Positions 27,954-42,355 of a stretch of DNA of 64,000 bases are shown here, in pieces. Within the stretch, counting starts at the first letter, position 1. Each line of letters starts with the position of its first letter. The notes under the pieces were generated by a model. That model saw only the letters and a list, made by a program, of their open reading frames with translations, was not told the DNA's origin and did no database searches. The position numbers and the translations under genes are program-made. The DNA is from Phytomonospora endophytica (GTDB taxonomy: Bacteria; Actinomycetota; Actinomycetes; Mycobacteriales; Micromonosporaceae): NCBI RefSeq assembly GCF_014202425.1, contig NZ_JACHGT010000006.1, positions 124,001 to 188,000 of the forward strand. Reading direction: 5' to 3'.

Positions 27954-28130
27954 TTACCAGCACCAGCCGGGGACGAGGTCGCACACGTGCTCACCCGTCT
28001 CGCAGCTGACGACGCACTTCAACTTCGGGCCGCCGTCGCAGATGTAGTACGTGCCGCACGACGCGTCGGCGGCGGCCTTCGGGGCAAGACGCGCTAAAAG
28101 TTTGTCCGCGAGAGCGTTGATCTTGGTCAT
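27954..28130 (-). CDS. Cysteine-rich small peptide, possible precursor peptide
   Basis: A 58-residue peptide not matched to a named family. Residues 1-23 are a leader-like amphipathic part: LAD at 7-9, L15, P17, K18 and alternating Ala at 19, 21, 23. Residues 24-58 hold six cysteines (25, 31, 39, 43, 50, 57) and aromatic residues, ending GWCW. The peptide at 42185-42355 has the same leader positions. ATG at 28130 has GGAGG six bases upstream; an ATG at 28142 is less likely. There is no Sec-type hydrophobic core and no modifying enzyme adjacent. Ribosomal natural-product precursor or metal-binding peptide are both possible. Confidence 0.72.
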   Translation of the reverse strand: MTKINALADKLLARLAPKAAADASCGTYYICDGGPKLKCVVSCETGEHVCDLVPGWCW

Positions 28131-28166
28131 TGTCGCCTCCATGGGTGGTTCGGGTGTTGAGGCAGG

Positions 28167-28194
28167 AGCCTAGCGGCCGGGTACTGAAAGTCAA
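28167..28194 (-). promoter_or_regulatory. Promoter of the cysteine-rich peptide gene
   Basis: Reading the minus strand, TTGACT (28189-28194) and TAGGCT (28167-28172) are 16 bases apart, close to the housekeeping-sigma consensus. The predicted mRNA start near 28160 gives a leader of about 30 bases. Confidence 0.6.
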
Positions 28195-42059: not shown

Positions 42060-42184
42060 CGGGCGAGCGCATAGGACAGCGCATATAGACGGTCATCTCT
42101 GCGTGCTCGATGGTGCCGAGCGCTCCACGGGGCTTCTATCCTACGCTTGTCCGATGTGGACAGCACCCGAGAAGGAGATCCGAC

Positions 42185-42355
42185 ATGCGCGTGTTCCGGC
42201 GTTTAGCCGACTCGATCACCGGCGTCCTCGTACCCCGCGCCTCGGCCGGGGCCTGTAAAGCCTGCTACGTGCACGGCTCGTGCGGCCAGGGCGGCCAGCG
42301 CATCTGCTGCTGGATAGGCAGCACCTGCCGCTACACCTGCGGCTGCGCGGCCTAG
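42185..42355 (+). CDS. Cysteine-rich small peptide, possible precursor peptide
   Basis: A 56-residue peptide with the same leader pattern as that at 27954-28130: LAD at 7-9, L15, P17, a basic residue at 18 and Ala at 19, 21 and 23. The 33-residue remainder holds eight cysteines (24, 27, 33, 41, 42, 48, 52, 54) with Trp, Tyr and Gly, ending GCAA. AAGGAG lies six bases before the ATG. It has no Sec-type signal core. A P450 gene follows 180 bases downstream on the same strand. Candidate secreted or modified peptide; family unnamed to me. Confidence 0.72.
   Translation: MRVFRRLADSITGVLVPRASAGACKACYVHGSCGQGGQRICCWIGSTCRYTCGCAA

Follow-up and report, generated by a model that had tools for sequence, protein, structure and literature searches.

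A dispersed family of cysteine-rich peptides with a common leader in Phytomonospora endophytica and its relatives, and a candidate pathway for their export and disulfide formation

Two small open reading frames (ORFs) in a 64,000-nucleotide stretch of the Phytomonospora endophytica genome (8.35 Mb; RefSeq assembly GCF_014202425.1, contig NZ_JACHGT010000006.1, here C6, positions 124001-188000; this whole stretch is called the window) encode peptides with a common leader and different cysteine-rich cores, and raise the question of what such peptides are and which genes serve them. The initial annotation, made from the sequence alone, placed them at 27954..28130 and 42185..42355. Both positions held, although the first peptide, P0002 (58 residues, MTKINALADKLLARLAPKAAADASCGTYYICDGGPKLKCVVSCETGEHVCDLVPGWCW), is actually encoded on the minus strand (28130..27954), the plus-strand reading being ruled out by an in-frame stop; the second, P0001 (56 residues), lies on the plus strand. 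As the annotation had noticed, the two agree at L7 A8 D9, L15, P17, a basic residue at 18 (K/R), A19, A21 and A23, with six cysteines in the core of P0002 and eight in that of P0001. We consider it likely, on the evidence of comparative sequence analysis, that both peptides belong to a leader-directed pathway, that is, to a family of exported, disulfide-stabilised peptides with shared machinery and a common regulon.

Either peptide, used as a query against the whole genome, returned further ORFs with the same leader (best E values 1.6e-5 and 2.1e-4), and at these values the likeness of the leaders is beyond chance. A profile built from 15 members of this genome retrieved 35 precursors, each with a different cysteine-rich core and dispersed with few tandem pairs across about 20 contigs, and a 36th precursor sits on contig C2 next to a second, diverged machinery set. 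Thus, the leader-core pattern proposed in the annotation stands (the paralogues average 40% identity in the leader and 25% in the core), but the two peptides are not a pair, and the family is far larger. The alignment of the 35 paralogues gave a leader of 23 residues with the consensus M..[LI]..LADRLL.RLVP...A.A. The annotation had made its proposal depend on homologues of the leader in related genomes, and these were found by profile search in 20 of 61 relatives and, at a stricter cut-off, in 13 of 296 genomes sampled across the class. The copy number per positive relative was 35 in P. endophytica, about 58 in Actinorhabdospora filicis NBRC 111898 (Micromonosporaceae; NZ_BSTX01000001.1 and NZ_BSTX01000002.1), 20 in genome G004 and 1-7 elsewhere. 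A DNA-pattern search matched A. filicis (L088, L098) and Amycolatopsis kentuckyensis (L091); its other matches, where translated, were chance matches inside other proteins. We also noticed an additional A. filicis precursor on contig C1 (L273:1621-1851), which has the direct repeat described below upstream of it and lies outside the profile-search listing.

Across the genomes we collected 180 distinct precursors. An encoded precursor with a shared leader and a diverse core is found in all of them, as in ribosomally synthesised and post-translationally modified peptides (RiPPs) in the broad sense. The number of core cysteines is even in 172 of the 180, and in 174 the leader closes with A-x-A at the site picked by our script, which is the classical motif of signal peptidase I. 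Among the eight odd-cysteine cores, four form two adjacent gene pairs, and for one of the remaining four the reading frame is uncertain. The paired precursors stand side by side at L184:8830-9179 (contig C18 of P. endophytica) and at L249 (G040, contig C2:1157376-1157747), with 5+7 and 7+7 cysteines; disulfide-linked heterodimers would fit this arrangement.

Between 15 and 20 of the P. endophytica cores have an orthologue-like partner in A. filicis, and the partners of the two window peptides (L195 for P0002, L217 for P0001) are 61% identical in the core. The cores hence seem to be separate peptides that have been maintained, which refines the variable cores of the annotation; we rejected free hypervariability on the ground that orthologue-like cores can be recognised in a second genus. 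The ratio of nonsynonymous to synonymous substitution rates, pooled over the orthologue-like pairs, was 0.50 for the leader and 0.71 for the core, values that are saturated and too rough to claim selection.

To find the genes that accompany the precursors, we examined 40 precursor neighbourhoods for recurring gene families. Those recurring widely were an ATP-binding cassette (ABC) transporter of about 600 residues, proteins of about 157, 179 and 182 residues, and a large regulator. The first four families matched ABC_tran, Peptidase_S26, AhpC-TSA/Redoxin and MauE in Pfam; the regulator is, by its sequence, of the Streptomyces antibiotic regulatory protein (SARP)/AfsR type, and its relative in P. 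endophytica matches the NCBIfam AfsR model below the cut-off. In low-copy relatives, and so in most genomes that have the system, one or a few precursors lie beside a conserved operon of a half-size ABC exporter, an S26 signal peptidase, a membrane-anchored thioredoxin-like protein and a MauE-type redox membrane protein, often with a SARP gene. At 35 low-copy loci a full-length exporter was present in 31, the S26 peptidase in 33, the thioredoxin in 31, MauE in 24 and SARP in 22, and 29 of the loci had three or all four of the machinery genes. The locus of A. kentuckyensis (NZ_MUMI01000050.1, L091) brings together the exporter, thioredoxin, MauE, S26 peptidase, SARP and two precursors. The residues expected of active proteins are conserved, namely CxxC in the thioredoxin, CxCFG in MauE, the Ser-Lys dyad in the S26 peptidase and the ABC motifs in the exporter. 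The S26 peptidases match TIGR02227 (signal peptidase I) above its cut-off and TIGR02754 weakly. A plasmid search with the operon thioredoxin gave no match.

These neighbourhoods bear on a different reading, in which the peptides form a RiPP class whose cysteines are further modified (to thioethers or heterocycles) by an enzyme encoded elsewhere, with thioredoxin and MauE as accessories. We regard this as unlikely. A leader-core layout, a SARP-type regulator and an ABC exporter are indeed typical of RiPP clusters, and clusters with mauE count as candidate RiPPs in decRiPPter (PMC7794033); against this, no further gene family was widespread across the 40 neighbourhoods, and no class-defining enzyme of the known RiPP classes (lanthipeptide, lasso, sactipeptide, YcaO and others) recurred there, not every neighbour having been scanned with profiles. 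The even cysteine numbers in 172 of 180 precursors are also best matched by disulfides. The same counts speak against metal-binding small proteins, similar to metallothioneins or metallochaperones and exported or anchored, with the cysteines as ligands: even numbers are not required of metal binders, the cysteine spacing varies among members, and the co-occurring genes are for redox and export and not for metal transport. The high cysteine content, and the CxC, CxxC or CC motifs present in some cores, would suit such proteins, which we nevertheless judge very improbable. Between the two possibilities named in the annotation, secreted disulfide peptides are favoured over ribosomal peptide natural products, given the even cysteine counts and the co-occurring thioredoxin, MauE, ABC exporter and signal peptidase.

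The annotation had suggested looking for distant enzymes that co-occur with the peptides, and the exporter, thioredoxin and MauE do track the precursors. The exporter (score of at least 634 bits) was present in 20/20 precursor-positive and 0/41 negative relatives (Fisher p 1.6e-16), thioredoxin and MauE in 20/20 and 1/41 (Fisher p 3.4e-15), and the S26 peptidase in all 20 positive relatives, in one of them by a partial match. In the class-wide sample, the exporter was found in 13/13 positive and 6/283 negative genomes. The precursors might instead be ordinary small proteins exported by the Sec pathway, with the N-terminus as a signal peptide and the ABC exporter moving some other cargo. A leader of about 23 residues, a proline about six residues ahead of A-x-A and a signal peptidase gene are all reminiscent of Sec signal peptides; the near-invariant Asp9 and frequent Arg10 would, however, fall within the hydrophobic core of the signal peptide (the alignment was judged by eye), and the exporter follows the precursors strictly among the 61 relatives. 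We consider Sec export unlikely.

In P. endophytica itself, the main exporter and one S26 peptidase are encoded on contig C11, a second peptidase on C18, thioredoxins on C18 and C22, and MauE on C2. None of these genes is on C6 or in the window, in line with the earlier remark that no modification gene is nearby, and both window peptides are therefore orphans; a link to their own neighbour genes was rejected, the window being without a machinery gene. They are presumably served in trans by the machinery encoded elsewhere in the genome. In A. filicis, one exporter stands against about 58 precursors. Contig C2 of P. endophytica additionally carries the diverged second set (L182:4930-10991), with SARP, S26 peptidase, exporter, thioredoxin and a precursor of its own, MTKLGTKMLSFLLKTEKAGACVPEHG...

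The upstream regions of the precursors in P. endophytica and A. filicis have in common the operator-like direct repeat CGCAYA-N6-CGCAYA. Exact sites numbered 17 in P. endophytica, against 3 for the reversed pattern, and 20 against 2 in A. filicis. Of the P. endophytica sites, nine are located no more than 300 bp upstream of precursors, among them CGCATA-N6-CGCATA at 42068..42085 (plus strand), roughly 100 bp ahead of the P0001 start codon; another is some 80 bp upstream of a SARP gene. The A. filicis sites precede precursors, mauE and a SARP gene, and a near-match falls between the thioredoxin gene and a SARP gene. The sites at mauE, at the SARP genes and in the thioredoxin/SARP gap were not used in motif discovery and form the independent part of this result. 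Two further observations concern the same regions. A perfect CGCATA-N6-CGCATA at L280:2086-2103 (C6:410585), with no adjacent precursor found, lies near a regulator gene that looks to be of the XRE type, and the A. filicis sequences that precede precursors are enriched not only in the direct repeat but also in a palindromic word centred on GATC (TGATCA, ATGATC).

The pathway that we propose would proceed as follows. The 23-residue leader, probably an amphipathic helix, would mark the precursors for one dedicated half-size ABC exporter, and a dedicated membrane-bound S26-type signal peptidase would cut after A-x-A, at or after export. The membrane-anchored thioredoxin-like protein and the MauE-type protein could then oxidise the core cysteines to disulfides outside the membrane. 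In P. endophytica and Actinorhabdospora, precursor genes have increased in number and scattered, with the machinery remaining close to single-copy, and expression of many of the dispersed genes is probably coordinated by a regulator, most likely a SARP, acting on CGCAYA-N6-CGCAYA. The family, its leader, the even cysteine counts, the gene linkage, the co-occurrence, the conserved catalytic residues and the common repeat are direct observations. We infer these biochemical steps, the direction of the redox flow, the service in trans and SARP as the binding regulator from the sequences and gene arrangements described above.

Several points weigh against this pathway. The exporter, peptidase and redox pair are assigned by homology. 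The co-occurrence arises partly by construction, because most profile sequences came from precursor-adjacent loci, yet six genomes that contributed no profile sequence (P. endophytica, A. filicis, G002, G004, G017 and G057) were all positive. A strong S26 match was obtained in G011, G013 and G036, which have no exporter, thioredoxin, MauE or precursors, and six genomes of the class sample (G077, G170, G191, G274, G291 and G298) have the exporter and no precursor detected at E 1e-5, perhaps because theirs have diverged beyond the reach of the profile. The enrichment of the repeat at precursors is partly circular, because the motif was derived from those upstream regions, and the repeat was not found upstream of P0002.

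Taken in a wider sense, we lean towards an uncharacterised actinobacterial secretion and folding pathway for disulfide-rich peptides, whose single exporter, one or two leader peptidases and single redox pair would serve tens of unlinked precursors belonging to one regulon. Such a pathway would be the bacterial equivalent of peptide repertoires of the venom or defensin type. The likeliest role of the secreted repertoire would be in defence or competition, a weak suggestion that draws on the secondary-metabolism type of the linked regulators.

Parts of this arrangement resemble known systems. MauE and a MauD-like thioredoxin mature the small cysteine-rich MauA of methylamine dehydrogenase, probably via disulfide formation; there, the substrate is one enzyme subunit, whereas here it would be a diverse peptide family, and that maturation is not known to involve an ABC exporter and an S26 peptidase dedicated to it in the present manner. 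The protease of nickel superoxide dismutase maturation (TIGR02754) is likewise a dedicated S26-family enzyme for one substrate, which differs from the present peptides, and it is not known to be accompanied by an exporter-redox gene set. Double-glycine leaders direct the export of small, often disulfide-bonded bacteriocins by peptidase-containing ABC transporters (PCATs). Such a system has a GG or GA leader end and a C39 domain; the present leader closes with A-x-A, we assign its removal to a separate S26 enzyme, and in the one exporter scanned against Pfam (the exporters being of about 600 residues) there was no match to the C39 peptidase domain.

Likeness in gene content is offered by decRiPPter (Kloosterman et al. 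2020, PMC7794033), whose main text describes three Streptomyces candidate families with mauE (in one also mauD) beside a predicted precursor of at least eight cysteines. These clusters, selected for a transporter, a peptidase and a regulator, are uncharacterised, and mauE was proposed there to modify the peptide (PMC7794033). In gene content the present loci match them (mauE, cysteine-rich precursor, transporter, peptidase, regulator), but those families are from Streptomyces only, and the main text describes neither a leader in common nor genomes with many scattered precursors nor an operator (PMC7794033). For the class I lasso peptide humidimycin, of the siamycin type, HumE of the DoxX family and the thioredoxin HumF were proposed for disulfides (PMC7168211). 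It is similar in its DoxX-type membrane protein, thioredoxin and ABC transporter genes and in its exported peptide, and differs in the lasso macrolactam made by HumB/HumC and in the leader being cut by HumB2, the text of the paper naming no signal peptidase (PMC7168211). Among the open-licence papers searched, only those on decRiPPter and humidimycin proved relevant, and none was found to describe the common leader, the scattering of many precursors over a genome or the repeat.

Tens of candidate disulfide-rich peptides per genome lie outside any modification-gene cluster, and tools that look for a precursor beside an enzyme would therefore tend to miss them. If the proposed pathway is true, the leader would be a search key to stable secreted peptides, a large set of which is still unexplored, and the machinery genes might become a toolkit for the bacterial production of disulfide peptides.

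As for the window peptides themselves, neither P0001 nor P0002 matched Pfam, and the precursors gave a single weak match in NCBIfam, far below the cut-off of that model. Solved structures searched by sequence returned nothing credible for P0002 and nothing for P0001. Single-sequence AlphaFold2 models had a mean predicted local distance difference test score (pLDDT) of 72 for P0002 and 63 for P0001; the P0002 model had no Foldseek match in the PDB at E 0.001 or better, and therefore we claim no fold. In this model the core of P0002 (residues 24-58, six cysteines; 27957..28061, minus strand) has three strands. It follows the leader (residues 1-23; 28062..28130, minus strand), whose A-x-A end, placed by the alignment of 35 paralogues, is the predicted cleavage site; the paralogue alignment puts the leader of P0001 at 42185..42253 (residues 1-23, plus strand), with A-G-A at its end. 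Upstream of P0002, direct reading of the sequence gave a weak promoter-like TTGACT-16-TAGGCT (28167..28194, minus strand), which is only suggestive because it scores under the scan threshold. Both peptides have good ribosome-binding sites, also read directly from the sequence, GGAGG at 28136..28140 (minus strand), 5 nt ahead of the ATG of P0002, and AAGGAG at 42172..42177 (plus strand) before P0001.
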